Positions 6,175-62,652 of a stretch of DNA of 64,000 bases are shown here, in pieces. The stretch is from Flammeovirgaceae bacterium SG7u.111 (GTDB lineage: Bacteria; Bacteroidota; Bacteroidia; Cytophagales; Flammeovirgaceae): assembly GCA_034044135.1 (NCBI GenBank), contig CP139021.1, forward strand, positions 3,983,635 to 4,047,634, in the 5' to 3' direction. The translations under genes and the position numbers were made by a program. Each line of letters begins with the position of its first letter. Positions within the stretch are counted from its first letter, which is position 1. The notes under the pieces were generated by a model. It was not told the DNA's origin and searched no databases. It worked only from the letters and a program-made list of their open reading frames with translations.

Positions 6175-6716
6175 ATGAGCCGTTTTCACAAATTGTCACA
6201 TTCGATCTGGTATTGCAAGTACCATATAGTTTGGACACCTAAATATAGGTATAGAATCCTCGAAGGAGCAATAAAAAGGGCAGCAATAGAGCATATAATG
6301 CAGTACGCCGCCCAAAAGAAATGTATTATCGATACGCTGAACGTCCAAAAGGACCATGTTCACTTGATTATCGATATCCCTCCCAAATATTCGGTTTCCG
6401 ATGTGGTGGGGATCTTGAAGGGCCGGACAGCCATACGGTTGTTTTCAAAGTTCAAGAAGCTGAAGCAACGCCCCTATTGGGGCAACCGTTTTTGGGCAAC
6501 AGGCTATTGTGTTGATACGGTAGGGCTTGACCCAGAAAAGATAAGGCTTTACGTGGAGTATCAAGAAGAACAGGAAAAAAAGAACGAGAGCTAAGAATAA
6601 CAAAGTAATAAAATAGATTTATAACCGGGGACAATGAATTCCTTTGCCTCCTTTGGGGGCAAGGGCAGTTTACCCCCTTACAGGGGTTATCACAATTCCC
6701 CGCCCTTTGGGTGGGG
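6073..6716 (+). mobile_element. IS200/IS605-type insertion element, TnpA only (ends approximate)
   Basis: A Y1 transposase gene is bracketed by subterminal hairpins: CCACGCTC-TAT-GAGCGTGG at 6073-6091 on the left and CCCCGCCC-TTT-GGGTGGGG (one G-T pair) at 6698-6716 on the right. Such elements lack terminal inverted repeats and move as single-stranded circles, so the true ends lie a few to some tens of bases beyond these hairpins. No tnpB is present. The right end lies about 30 bases before the start codon of the DUF1772 gene. Confidence 0.7.
6175..6594 (+). CDS. tnpA: IS200/IS605-family transposase TnpA
   Basis: 139 residues, the normal size of the Y1 HUH transposases. The HUH pair is His61 and His63 in DHVHLII; the catalytic Tyr is probably Tyr111 in WATGYCVDTVG, in the usual position after the NRFW block. 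It nicks and rejoins single-stranded ends folded into hairpins, and these are visible on both sides. The frame is intact, so the copy may be active. A REP-associated (RAYT) relative is less likely, given the short length and typical IS200 flanks. Confidence 0.92.
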   Translation: MSRFHKLSHSIWYCKYHIVWTPKYRYRILEGAIKRAAIEHIMQYAAQKKCIIDTLNVQKDHVHLIIDIPPKYSVSDVVGILKGRTAIRLFSKFKKLKQRPYWGNRFWATGYCVDTVGLDPEKIRLYVEYQEEQEKKNES

Positions 6717-21710: not shown

Positions 21711-21983
21711 AGCAACCTCTGGTATCTAATCCCCCACATGGGGAATATATTCGGGCACTTAAGCGTTACGAACCTTCGCTTTGGGAGTCTATTCCGTCAC
21801 ATGTGGCATCCATTTCATCATGTTGGATACGTAATCTACCACTTCTGGAGCTTAATCAGCCACTTATGGGAGGCAATCGGCCGCCTCGGGAGGGCATTTG
21901 CCCTGTTTAGGTGTTTATTTGACTGGTTTAGGCACAACCATCGCCATGTTTGGCAAAATAATCCCCTACCCTTTTGTGAATTT
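21711..21983 (+). repeat. Array of 13 degenerate units with an exact 21-bp period (array 1)
   Basis: Units start at 21711, 21732, 21753 and so on to 21963. Per unit, C predominates at positions 3, 4 and 6, A or G at 5, T at 8, GG at 11-12, and A/T-T-C/T at 19-21. Clear units: 21795, 21837, 21858, 21879. Two weaker ones may precede, near 21669-21710. The units are too diverged for a recent tandem duplication and no indels break the period. One frame is open through the array as heptad-like peptides (SHLWEAI, YHFWSLI), but a start with ribosome site is lacking. It lies 414 bases upstream of the gene at 22398. It is not a CRISPR: no conserved repeat with unique spacers and no cas genes. Confidence 0.75.
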
Positions 21984-22397: not shown

Positions 22398-23015
22398 ATG
22401 AAAGAATATTTTGACAAAAAGAAAGTCAATAGTATCGGAACATACATTGACCAGGTGCTTGGCACCCCAAGTGAGCTAGCCTTGGCAACTTCGGCGGGCT
22501 ATCCTAAAAAAGAATTTGACAATGCAGCGAAGCTCTACAAAGAGATTATGGAACTTAGGCAAGTCAGCAAGGTAGCCCTTGGCAGGCGCTTTAGCGCCAC
22601 CGATGCCTTTAACTATTCGGTAGAGCAACTGAAGGAGCATTATGGCCCTGTAAAGGAAATCGCCTATATCTTGTTTGAAGATGACAGGGAAGCCTACTAC
22701 AACCTAGACCTCAGCGGACCAAGGGACGACTCTTTTGACGGGATGAAAACCCAAGTGCGCATTCTCTACGAAGGAATTTTGGGCAATGCCAACTACCTCG
22801 CCGACTTGAATAAGAAAGGTATCAGCCAAGAGCACTTGCAAGCGGGGCTAAAGCTCCATGCCGATATGCTCGAACTCAAGCGCATCCAGCTCTTCGTCGA
22901 ACACGAGAGAAAGGAAGCAGTGCAGACACTCCTAGTAAAGGTGAACGAATTAGAGAAATGGCACTCCAAAGCCAAGCGGATCATCCGCGCCTACAGCAAG
23001 GTAAAACCTATCTAG
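22398..23015 (+). CDS. Helical protein of an array-associated family (copy 1)
   Basis: 205 residues from the ATG at 22398. The sequence is charged, without signal peptide, membrane segment or Cys, and should be entirely alpha-helical. I do not recognise a named family. It is homologous to the product of 61310-62029: both have L-A-x-A-x-x-AGY near the start, then a KE-rich helix, LFE (YILFEDDR here, RRLFESEE there), L-x-L-x-G-x-R, and a C-terminal W-H/L followed by basic residues. Both genes have a 21-bp periodic array on their 5' side. A DNA-binding or nucleoid role is one idea, from charge and context only. Confidence 0.75.
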   Translation: MKEYFDKKKVNSIGTYIDQVLGTPSELALATSAGYPKKEFDNAAKLYKEIMELRQVSKVALGRRFSATDAFNYSVEQLKEHYGPVKEIAYILFEDDREAYYNLDLSGPRDDSFDGMKTQVRILYEGILGNANYLADLNKKGISQEHLQAGLKLHADMLELKRIQLFVEHERKEAVQTLLVKVNELEKWHSKAKRIIRAYSKVKPI

Positions 23016-23374: not shown

Positions 23375-23846
23375 GTCGTTCCCATGAAAGTGGGAATCTC
23401 TCTCCGACTATTCTGCAAAGCCCCAAGGTGCTCGATCCGAAATGCTTGCTGGTGCATCGGAGGGAGATCCCGGGTCTATGCCCGGGATGACTCAACTACT
23501 GCTGACTCCAGTGGTACTACCTTCATTTGAACGCCCCAACGTATTCGAGATACCTCCACAAACCAGTGTCATTCCCGGTCCGATCGGGAATCTCCCTCCT
23601 ATCATTCCACAAACCAACCCATTACAAAAAAGCAAAGCTCCACAATGCCTGTTGATGCGTGGGTAGGAGATCCTGCGTCGAAGCGCAGGATGACGGAAAG
23701 TAAGAGTCATTCCGGCCCTGAGCCGGAATCTCCCTCTTACTATTCAACAGGCCTACCCATTTCAAAAGAGCAAAGCTCTACAATGCCACCCAAAATACCA
23801 GCTCTTTGCACAATAGGTCGGAGATCCCGCATCTGCGTGCGGGAAG
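23375..23846. repeat. BIME-like array of six hairpins in alternating orientation
   Basis: Hairpin stems are at 23379-23396, 23467-23488, 23571-23591, 23670-23691, 23709-23729 and 23825-23844. The first, third and fifth have GTC before and ATCTC after; the second, fourth and sixth have the reverse, GAGAT before and GAC after. Stems differ in sequence yet stay paired (for example CCCGGG, CCTGCG, CCGGC, CCCGCA with their complements), so structure is kept. The spacers between hairpins 3-4 and 5-6 are also alike (AGCAAAGCTC...ACAATGCC). The whole 970-base gap from 23016 to 23986 holds no gene. Confidence 0.8.
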
Positions 23847-61309: not shown

Positions 61310-62029
61310 TTAAGCCTTTACCGCAGCAGTTTTTTTCTTACTGCTGGCAGGGGCTCCATCATCTGCCAAACCTGTTGGCGCTGGAGTTCTTTTATAGATC
61401 GCCTTAAAATCCCTTAGCCATTTGTGGAAAGCTTTGAGCTTTCTGTTACGGTCGGTAGTAGCATCTTGAGCTATCTTTTCTTTCTTCTTGGCCAAGTGGT
61501 GGAGTTCTACTACTTCTTCCACCATCTGCAGCATTTGCTCCACTAGCTCCGTGCTCACACTCCTTGTCTTTAGCTTATTGCTAATTTCCTTTTCTTGCAG
61601 GGCAAATTGGTAGAACTTGCTGATATAATTGATGATGAGGGTAAACTTGCGCGGCCTGTCCCCTTCTAGCTTCAGCTGCCGAGCAATGCCCCTGTCCTCT
61701 TCCGACTCAAATAGTCTCCTGGCCTTTGTGAGGTGCCCCATGTATTCTTTTTCTAAGTTTCGGAAAGACTGCTTGAAAACCTTATACTGTTGGTCTTTTT
61801 CAGACTGCTTGTTTTCCCATACAAGGTCTGCTGCCCATACCTCTTTTACCATTACCTGAGCATTTACTAACTCCGCACGGCTATAGCCAGCATTGTTTGC
61901 CCTAGCTAGGGTATCCTCCTTGCCCACTATGGTGCTCAGGAAGGTATCTGCTTCCATTAGTTCTGTTTGCCAATCATTACTCTCTTTTCTTTTAGCAGTA
62001 GAGTTGATCGTGTCGTTTGTTGGATCCAT
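61310..62029 (-). CDS. Helical protein of an array-associated family (copy 2)
   Basis: 239 residues, no signal, no membrane part, entirely helical by composition. Residues 40-215 align with copy 1 (22398-23015): TLARANNAGYSRAELVNAQ with ELALATSAGYPKKEFDNAA, ARRLFESEEDR with YILFEDDRE, LKLEGDRPRKF with LDLSGPRDDSF, and LKAFHKWLRDFKAIYKR with LEKWHSKAKRIIRAYSK. The C-terminal 25 residues (PAPTG...SSKKKTAAVKA) are a basic low-complexity tail lacking in copy 1. Array 2 lies 268 bases upstream of its start. Family unknown to me. Confidence 0.75.
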   Translation of the reverse strand: MDPTNDTINSTAKRKESNDWQTELMEADTFLSTIVGKEDTLARANNAGYSRAELVNAQVMVKEVWAADLVWENKQSEKDQQYKVFKQSFRNLEKEYMGHLTKARRLFESEEDRGIARQLKLEGDRPRKFTLIINYISKFYQFALQEKEISNKLKTRSVSTELVEQMLQMVEEVVELHHLAKKKEKIAQDATTDRNRKLKAFHKWLRDFKAIYKRTPAPTGLADDGAPASSKKKTAAVKA

Positions 62030-62296
62030 TTTTTTAGGATTTTTATGAAAATTAAAATATCATCCTGTAAACGAGGTACTTAAAAATTGTTGCCACTATT
62101 CCTATCCAATATGTTCCACAATATTACATGACTACATATTGTGTTAGCCCCTACAAAAACAGTGAAATGTAAAATATAAGCAATAATAGAATTGTATTTT
62201 GCAGTTAGTTACAGGATCTTACATAAAAAACCTTGTACTTTTCCTGCGAAATATTACAGCTTGTGAAGAGACTATACATATGCAGCTGCAACTGAT

Positions 62297-62652
62297 GCGG
62301 CTTTGCTTATAAAATTAGCAGCTTGCCCTCAAAATGATGCGCGATAGGGCTATCGGATGAGGCATTGTTTAAAATATTAGCGGCGCATGCTCCAACTCAT
62401 GCGGCGCACGCTCCAAATTGTTCGGCATCTTACATGATCGAAGCGGCGCACCCTTTATTCCATGCGGCGGCCGCTTCAAATTGTCTTCCAATCGCTCAAA
62501 ACGATGCCGACATGTAAGAAATAGGTGCGTACAAGGGGCTATCTCAAGCCACTTTGTTTATAAAATTAGCAGACACCCCTCCAGCCCATGCCGACAGTGC
62601 AGTAACCCTAGCGGACAACGCTATAAACGATACCTGCATCCCCCGGTTTGCC
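62297..62652 (-). repeat. Array of 17 degenerate units with a 21-bp period (array 2)
   Basis: Units begin at 62297, 62318, 62339, then (one base short) 62359, 62380, 62401, 62422 and on by 21 to 62632. On the plus strand a unit starts GC-G/C-G-C, has C-T at 11-12, an A-run at 15-18 and ends A-T or T-A. The clearest are 62380, 62401, 62443, 62464. Units 62297 and 62548 differ at only 4 of 21 positions. Stop codons appear in all frames read with the period, so it is not coding. It lies on the 5' side of the gene at 61310-62029, as array 1 does for its homologue. Confidence 0.75.

Follow-up and report, generated by a model that had tools for sequence, protein, structure and literature searches.

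PQLLE-family genes are often paired with an upstream array of 21-bp units that may serve as a platform for protein assembly on DNA

Introduction

Why do two homologous genes of one bacterial chromosome each lie beside a row of degenerate units spaced 21 bp apart? The question is raised by a window of 64,000 nucleotides (the whole stretch of DNA analysed here) from Flammeovirgaceae bacterium SG7u.111 (contig CP139021.1). An earlier note, made from the sequence alone, had claimed that the window holds two homologous genes, each with a 21-bp array on its own 5' side, and had suggested that the array is a phased binding platform, a variable recognition element or a structured RNA read by the neighbouring protein. 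Both genes belong to NF052641 (NCBIfam, "PQLLE family"), known beforehand as a named family. The name "PQLLE family protein" carries no function, the scans performed here added none, and nothing on NF052641 or its arrays was found in the open-access literature searched. What is new is a statistically strong array partner in cis.

Results

Positions 61310-62652 of the window comprise gene A and array A. Gene A (61310..62029, minus strand) encodes a basic protein of 239 aa (pI 9.4) and is homologous to gene B (22398..23015, plus strand; 205 aa, pI 8.8), with a BLASTP E-value of 8e-9 and 24% identity over 176 positions. Scores of 106.6 and 90.4 bits against NF052641 place genes A and B, respectively, above the curated cut-off of 80, so that family membership is met. 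Array A (62279..62634, minus strand) consists of 17 degenerate 21-bp units without an excess of open frames, separated from gene A by a spacer of 249 bp (62030..62278, minus strand), and array B (21718..21927, plus strand) has 10 such units 470 bp upstream of gene B. These distances to the ATGs are from our segmentation; the earlier note had given 268 and 414 bases. In the segmentation, which favours 21-bp steps, 15 of the 16 steps of array A are 21 bp and one is 20 bp, and in array B all steps (9/9) are 21 bp. The best period among 14-30 was 21 in each of the 800-bp stretches upstream of the two genes, and none of 1000 dinucleotide shuffles reached the observed scores of 0.191 (A) and 0.238 (B) at any period from 14 to 30, the largest null scores being 0.096 and 0.102, respectively. 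At period 21, no site in the 64-kb window other than arrays A and B scores 0.10 or higher. Both arrays are missing from the Tandem Repeats Finder output, presumably owing to the strong degeneracy of their units, and an Rfam scan of the window gave no match. Given the family membership and the shuffle tests, the claim of two homologous genes with an array on the 5' side of each has held.

The arrangement is also more widespread than had been noticed, with arrays at many copies and homologues. The window's own genome has 16 PQLLE matches, 11 of which are above the curated cut-off, and one relative has 36. Matches were present in 11/18 genomes of the same family, 14/390 genomes drawn from the order and 10/395 drawn from the phylum (the own genome being counted in each), as well as in 52/295 genomes of one other family; the four draws overlap and use different E-value limits. 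Copy number differs strongly within one genus, three genomes of which hold 36, 11 and 20 matches, including fragments and copies interrupted by stops. A full-length relative (L139) was found on a MAG contig labelled Chloroflexaceae, possibly owing to a binning error or to transfer. No relative was found in viral contigs using alignment A2 and no match in plasmids and phages using relative L133, both searches reaching close relatives of the query only.

The pairing of gene and array was assessed at 138 loci, which remained from 169 oriented loci after removal of 16 fetched twice and of 15 with a gene below 190 aa or less than 500 bp upstream; the array-bearing L021/L030, L055, L080 and L082 were among the 15 excluded for size. 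No two of the 138 genes are identical, but close relatives among them are not independent. For both statistics, the threshold was placed at the 97.5th percentile of the downstream regions, whereby about 5% of these pass by construction (6/136). A strict rule based on lag autocorrelation detected an upstream array at 79/138 loci (Fisher 2e-23) and a tolerant rule based on spacing-tolerant segmentation at 94/138, leaving 44/138 genes without an upstream array by the latter. Where the upstream score exceeded 0.12, the best base period was 21 in 58 cases, 20 in one and 28 in one. In the own genome, 9 of the 15 counted copies passed the strict rule and 10 the tolerant rule; the five copies without an array by the tolerant rule are L003, L009 and L013-L015, and the close relatives L023-L026 are likewise array-less by this rule. 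Some of the downstream passes are genuine arrays, as at the distant homologue L035, where a clear 21-bp array with a TCAGGAA core directly follows the stop codon. Homologues found mostly without arrays, which the earlier note had named as an outcome that would refute the link, thus failed to appear, although a sizeable minority lacks an array.

The other refuting outcome that it had named, arrays equally frequent next to unrelated genes, was not met either: control DNA of four genomes, 1.2 Mb in total, contained two non-coding 21/42-bp arrays. Two of the genomes contributed 20 stretches apiece, each 20 kb long (800 kb together), and a further 400 kb came from the other two. Six clusters scoring at least 0.115 at period 20-22 were found in the 800 kb, four of which overlap long open frames that look coding. 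One of the remaining two lies upstream of a PQLLE gene and the other is an orphan non-coding 42-bp array (L211:7411-7620, genome G458). The orphan precedes by about 330 bp a codirectional gene that we take to be TPR-like, and no PQLLE-like frame was seen near the array within 7 kb on one side and 19 kb on the other. Three PQLLE matches (one truncated) fall inside the 800 kb, with an array above threshold at one of the three, and the further 400 kb contained neither a cluster nor a PQLLE match. At the control threshold of 0.115, an upstream array is present at 57/127 loci. In G458, repeats with a 23-bp period were also observed outside long open frames (L181:18911 and L185:12121, scores 0.35 and 0.21, respectively), unlike the 21-bp arrays.

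Segmentation delimited 57 arrays, or 56 when one array seen twice is counted once, with 8-18 units each (median 11) and a distance from array end to ATG of 5-529 bp (median 180). With a spacing penalty, 587/605 steps were 21 bp, the penalised segmentation imposing 21-bp steps even on L002, which has a best period of 20. Without the penalty, 577/620 steps were 21 bp, followed by 20 bp with 19 steps; this count was seeded from the penalised segmentation. Periods of 41 bp and steps other than 21 bp do occur. Two unit types alternate in 17/57 arrays, forming a 42-bp superunit, and in L040, L090, L063, L101 and L110 the signal at lag 21 is near background and the repeat is seen at 42 only.

Unit sequence varies between loci and is similar mainly among close relatives. 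Motif similarity of z>4 was observed in 12/46 pairs with more than 200 protein bits, 10/97 with 120-200, 6/399 with 60-120 and 7/719 with 1-60 bits, and in 0/334 pairs without a protein match. No 4-mer is common to most arrays, the most frequent one occurring in 11/56 consensus units. Within the 21-bp unit, the longest variable block spans a median of 4 columns, and blocks of at least 9 columns occur in 2/56 arrays, or in 8/50 when the arrays are cut as 42-bp units, where fewer units make the columns noisier; with such short variable blocks the arrays are in all likelihood unlike guide arrays. Palindromes exceeded permuted columns at p<0.05 in 8/57 units, a signal too weak for a general dimer-palindrome model, which was rejected. 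The arrays are non-coding, as open frames are near chance (45 vs. 40.8 expected from column shuffles) and codon-position bias was seen in 1/57. RNA folding, computed for 28 of the 56 arrays, was slightly better than that of shuffled sequences, to the same degree on either strand (mean z of -0.68 on one and -0.74 on the other, with 6 and 5 arrays, respectively, below -2), and the conserved columns lean towards A/C on the gene strand in 30/47 arrays (p 0.08).

Conservation within the unit carries a helix-face signature. The 10.5-bp (second) harmonic of column conservation in the 21-bp unit was 0.2365 compared to 0.0996 in column permutations (z 10.8), and it was present in each of five groups tested apart (z 2.5 to 7.9), the observed value being reached by 4/500 permutations in the own genome and by 0/500 in the other groups. 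Profiles of 42 columns gave an isolated peak at 10.5 bp (0.142), with 0.054 at 14 bp and 0.038 at 8.4 bp, and control non-array DNA cut in 21-mers gave a 10.5-bp harmonic of 0.115. The detector used only multiples of 20-22 bp, and we see no route from it to an artefactual 10.5-bp harmonic. Counting against the helix-face reading, the 7-bp harmonic (0.241) is larger than the 10.5-bp harmonic (0.175) in the own genome. Contacts along one face of B-DNA are the plain and likely reading of the 10.5-bp harmonic, inferred here without binding data.

Array orientation and constraint were compared between related loci. Orientation is kept in 16/22 of the pairs that reach motif z>4 together with 120 protein bits or more; five of the six inverted pairs involve L050 and the sixth is L089/L123. 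The L050 array is clearly inverted relative to its gene, and its unit motif is kept compared to L124, L047, L049 and L055, which supports recognition of double-stranded DNA; L089/L123 may represent a second inversion. Between L052 and L054, the array differs at 12/294 sites compared to 13/73 fourfold gene sites (Fisher p 2e-4). In the paralogues L088/L095, gene (88%) and array (76%) align and most of the intervening DNA does not; here the array is hardly more conserved, differing at 44/190 sites compared to 26/83 fourfold sites.

AlphaFold models of the protein of gene A (pLDDT 89.5) and of a relative from Reichenbachiella versicolor (pLDDT 94.4) are all-helical and contain no strand, and in each of them the helix order short, short, 55-56 residues occurs twice. 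From this order and the sequence pattern we read the predicted PQLLE protein as a rod-like tandem duplication. Foldseek gave no match in the PDB at E<0.001 (best E 0.035), and the Z values of 8 to 9 obtained by VIA-align with unrelated helical proteins are within the noise stated for helical bundles. No convincing family match was found in Pfam, PHROG and PADLOC scans; weak matches to a PHROG tail fibre (E 0.0011), DUF4473 (E 2e-4) and EzrA (E 2e-4), and of one of six array-linked proteins to Cas7d in PADLOC (E 0.0073), were read as helical-type or chance similarity. The median pI of 119 proteins is 8.9, and a pI below 6.5 was found in 25/79 array-bearing proteins compared to 13/59 without an array. 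The acidic pI of many members is odd for a DNA binder and counts against binding.

The array-gene segment of L052 and L054 is 91.6% alike between flanks that are unrelated except for one 60-bp piece. In a sister genome, where the downstream flank is retained at 99%, a search for the segment was negative (40/51 candidates scored); as the other flank was not recovered there either, no clean insertion with an empty site has been shown. At the orthologous site L034/L209, conserved flanks enclose PQLLE genes whose proteins share 45.5% identity, and the stretch from flank to gene aligns poorly. The family is likely to turn over and diversify fast.

All 16 genes of the own genome (G000 contig C1) are located within 1.73-4.56 Mb, an arc of 2.83 Mb in 7.66 Mb (37%), which was matched by 0/20000 random sets, and in G458 a stretch of 1.88 Mb holds at most one of 36 genes (33/5000 random sets). 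According to GC-skew signs and rpoB strands, the gene arc of G000 is terminus-side, surrounding the GC-skew switch taken as terminus, and the gene-poor stretch of G458 is origin-side. However, dnaA adjoins neither inferred origin and in G000 lies near the switch taken as terminus, the skews of G440 and G492 are ambiguous, and a 16S search gave no match. Accessory genes often lean to the terminus. The scarcity of the genes on the inferred origin side of two genomes is possibly a hint of chromosome organisation and maybe plain accessory-gene behaviour. Given the dnaA conflict, the ambiguous skews and the terminus lean of accessory genes, a terminus organiser remains a lead only.

Discussion

Here we have shown the pairing of PQLLE genes with arrays, the 21-bp spacing, the helix-face conservation, a motif private to each locus and alike mainly in close relatives, and very different PQLLE copy numbers within one genus. 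The mechanism that we propose for these features is inferred. An array-bearing locus would be a self-contained pair, one member being a gene whose product is an all-helical rod with an internal duplication and the other a non-coding row in cis, which comprises about 8-18 DNA sites at intervals of two helical turns (21 bp). The PQLLE protein would bind the array as double-stranded DNA along one face, each 21-bp unit being contacted by one tandem module or each 42-bp pair by one protein. Cooperative assembly of adjacent proteins may produce an extended filament or cluster of nucleoprotein at the locus. Such a complex would mark, bridge or sequester the locus in a centromere- or satellite-like manner and would probably not be a plain promoter operator, which is unlikely given that arrays end anywhere between 5 and 529 bp from the ATG and that one of them follows its gene instead of preceding it. 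No binding data exist for this mechanism, and our main reading, that PQLLE or a partner assembles on the array as a DNA platform, is given a probability of about 0.5. A protein of two modules would match a 42-bp stretch of two units, a suggestive fit though no more than a possible one. Against the main reading, a relation between motif and protein similarity is also expected from joint descent.

Among the options raised in the earlier note, the phased platform is favoured by the 10.5-bp conservation harmonic, the one clear array inversion and the rarity of spacer-sized variable blocks, and the structured RNA is disfavoured, since folding shows no strand preference. The variable recognition element holds only insofar as the motif differs from locus to locus, and that the neighbouring protein reads the array has not been shown.

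A bolder reading goes beyond the platform in a claim that we consider more apt to fail than to hold. In this reading the loci would be a new chromosomal element in Bacteroidota, comprising single-gene loci, up to 36 per genome, each with a rod protein and a private helix-phased platform, and protein and platform would co-diversify like a satellite and its centromere protein, the address being read only by its own protein. Terminus-side chromosome organisation, incompatibility between rival copies or defence are conceivable roles. The helix-face signature predicts a sequence-specific assembly on double-stranded DNA, an inference for which there are no binding data, and the chances seem evenly balanced that the arrays point to an undescribed kind of protein-on-DNA complex. 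If this is true, orthogonal pairs of protein and DNA array would be numerous on each chromosome, forming a natural collection of addressable loci, and the family would provide a bacterial parallel to the evolution of satellites and centromere proteins.

Several other explanations could account for the arrays. Possibly they are rows of sites for another host factor, such as a nucleoid-associated or partition protein, with PQLLE being an effector or adaptor that does not touch DNA. The acidic array-bearing members (25/79), the absence of a significant fold match for PQLLE and the orphan array without a PQLLE gene are in favour of this, whereas a motif that differs per locus, with no 4-mer in more than 11/56 consensus units, is hard to explain by one common reader, and array and gene of L052/L054 are conserved together between unrelated flanks. 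A selfish or mobile cassette, in which array and gene spread and diversify as a parasite or driver and the array is its end or target, would fit the 36, 11 and 20 matches per genome in one genus with copies carrying stops, the L052/L054 segment that was not found in the sister genome, and the L034/L209 site with conserved flanks and genes 45.5% identical. We nevertheless find it unlikely, as no transposase or integrase family was found among the PQLLE proteins scanned, no clean empty site was shown where the sister genome also lacks the other flank, and the searches of plasmids and phages (L133) and of viral contigs (A2) gave no match.

An RNA platform or a TIGR-like RNA-guided system, in which transcripts of the array would supply units for binding or for use as guides, appears very unlikely, in the absence of RNA data. 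It could draw support from the gene-adjacent array of similar length and the locus-specific motif, a feature also described for TIGR (PMC12045711), from 42-bp superunits of two similar halves in some arrays, and from the slight A/C lean and the 11/56 strand folds with z below -2. On the other hand, variable blocks are short (median 4; at least 9 in 2/56, or 8/50 as 42-bp units), no motif is common to most arrays, folding is equal on both strands in the 28 arrays, the L050 array is clearly inverted, conservation follows a 10.5-bp helix-face pattern, and Pfam scans of 12 proteins revealed no Nop family. The arrays could also be a coding relic, 21 bp being seven codons of a heptad-repeat protein and indels being few, but this is all but excluded and was rejected, since open frames are at chance and codon-position bias is limited to 1/57; in addition, non-21 steps and 41-bp periods occur.

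The DNA platform can also be compared to known systems. In the type II and III partition systems ParR/parC and TubR/tubC, tandem direct repeats lie upstream of the operon of their binder in one locus and support cooperative helical assembly (PMC5016525). PQLLE loci share the tandem direct repeats beside a gene, without the gene product having been shown to be the binder. In contrast, ParR is a strand-bearing ribbon-helix-helix protein and the PQLLE models contain no strand; TubR has an HTH motif, and no winged-HTH match is among the fold rows listed for PQLLE, although absence from these lists excludes nothing. ParR and TubR each use a motor protein, whereas no partner was identified for PQLLE, without a systematic neighbour scan, and PQLLE genes differ from these partition loci by having many copies on one chromosome-size contig. 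Plasmid iterons are direct repeats of about 20 bp near the gene of the Rep protein that binds them. PQLLE arrays resemble them in this respect, but no Rep family is among the Pfam matches, there are 16 to 36 copies in two genomes, and the motifs are locus-specific. The F-plasmid sopC consists of 43-bp repeats, each unit containing an inverted repeat; PQLLE arrays are similar in having about four turns per unit and roughly a dozen units, and dissimilar in palindromes (8/57 at p<0.05). TIGR-Tas is a single-gene system with an adjacent array of usually 5 to 15 units and repeats that vary between loci, its guide units being 36 nt long and holding two spacers of about 8-12 nt, and its protein carrying a Nop domain (PMC12045711). 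With 21/42-bp units and spacer-sized blocks being rare, the 36-nt two-spacer unit is not met in PQLLE arrays, nor was a Nop family found in the window proteins (E up to 1) or ten relatives (E up to 0.1). Likewise, the near-identical repeats and long unique spacers of CRISPR are not met, the longest variable block having a median of 4/21 columns. The nearest systems are ParR/parC-type centromeres by their working and TIGR-Tas by layout only, and PQLLE loci lack at least one defining feature of each.

Two minor observations on the window were made by eye. A dispersed intergenic repeat (GGGATCTCC / GTCATCCC type) is located at 23380-23600 and is also seen upstream of the array-less L014 and L015, and a short transposase-like ORF of the IS200/IS605 TnpA kind is located at 6175-6594 (plus strand), a similar piece apparently lying upstream of L016.
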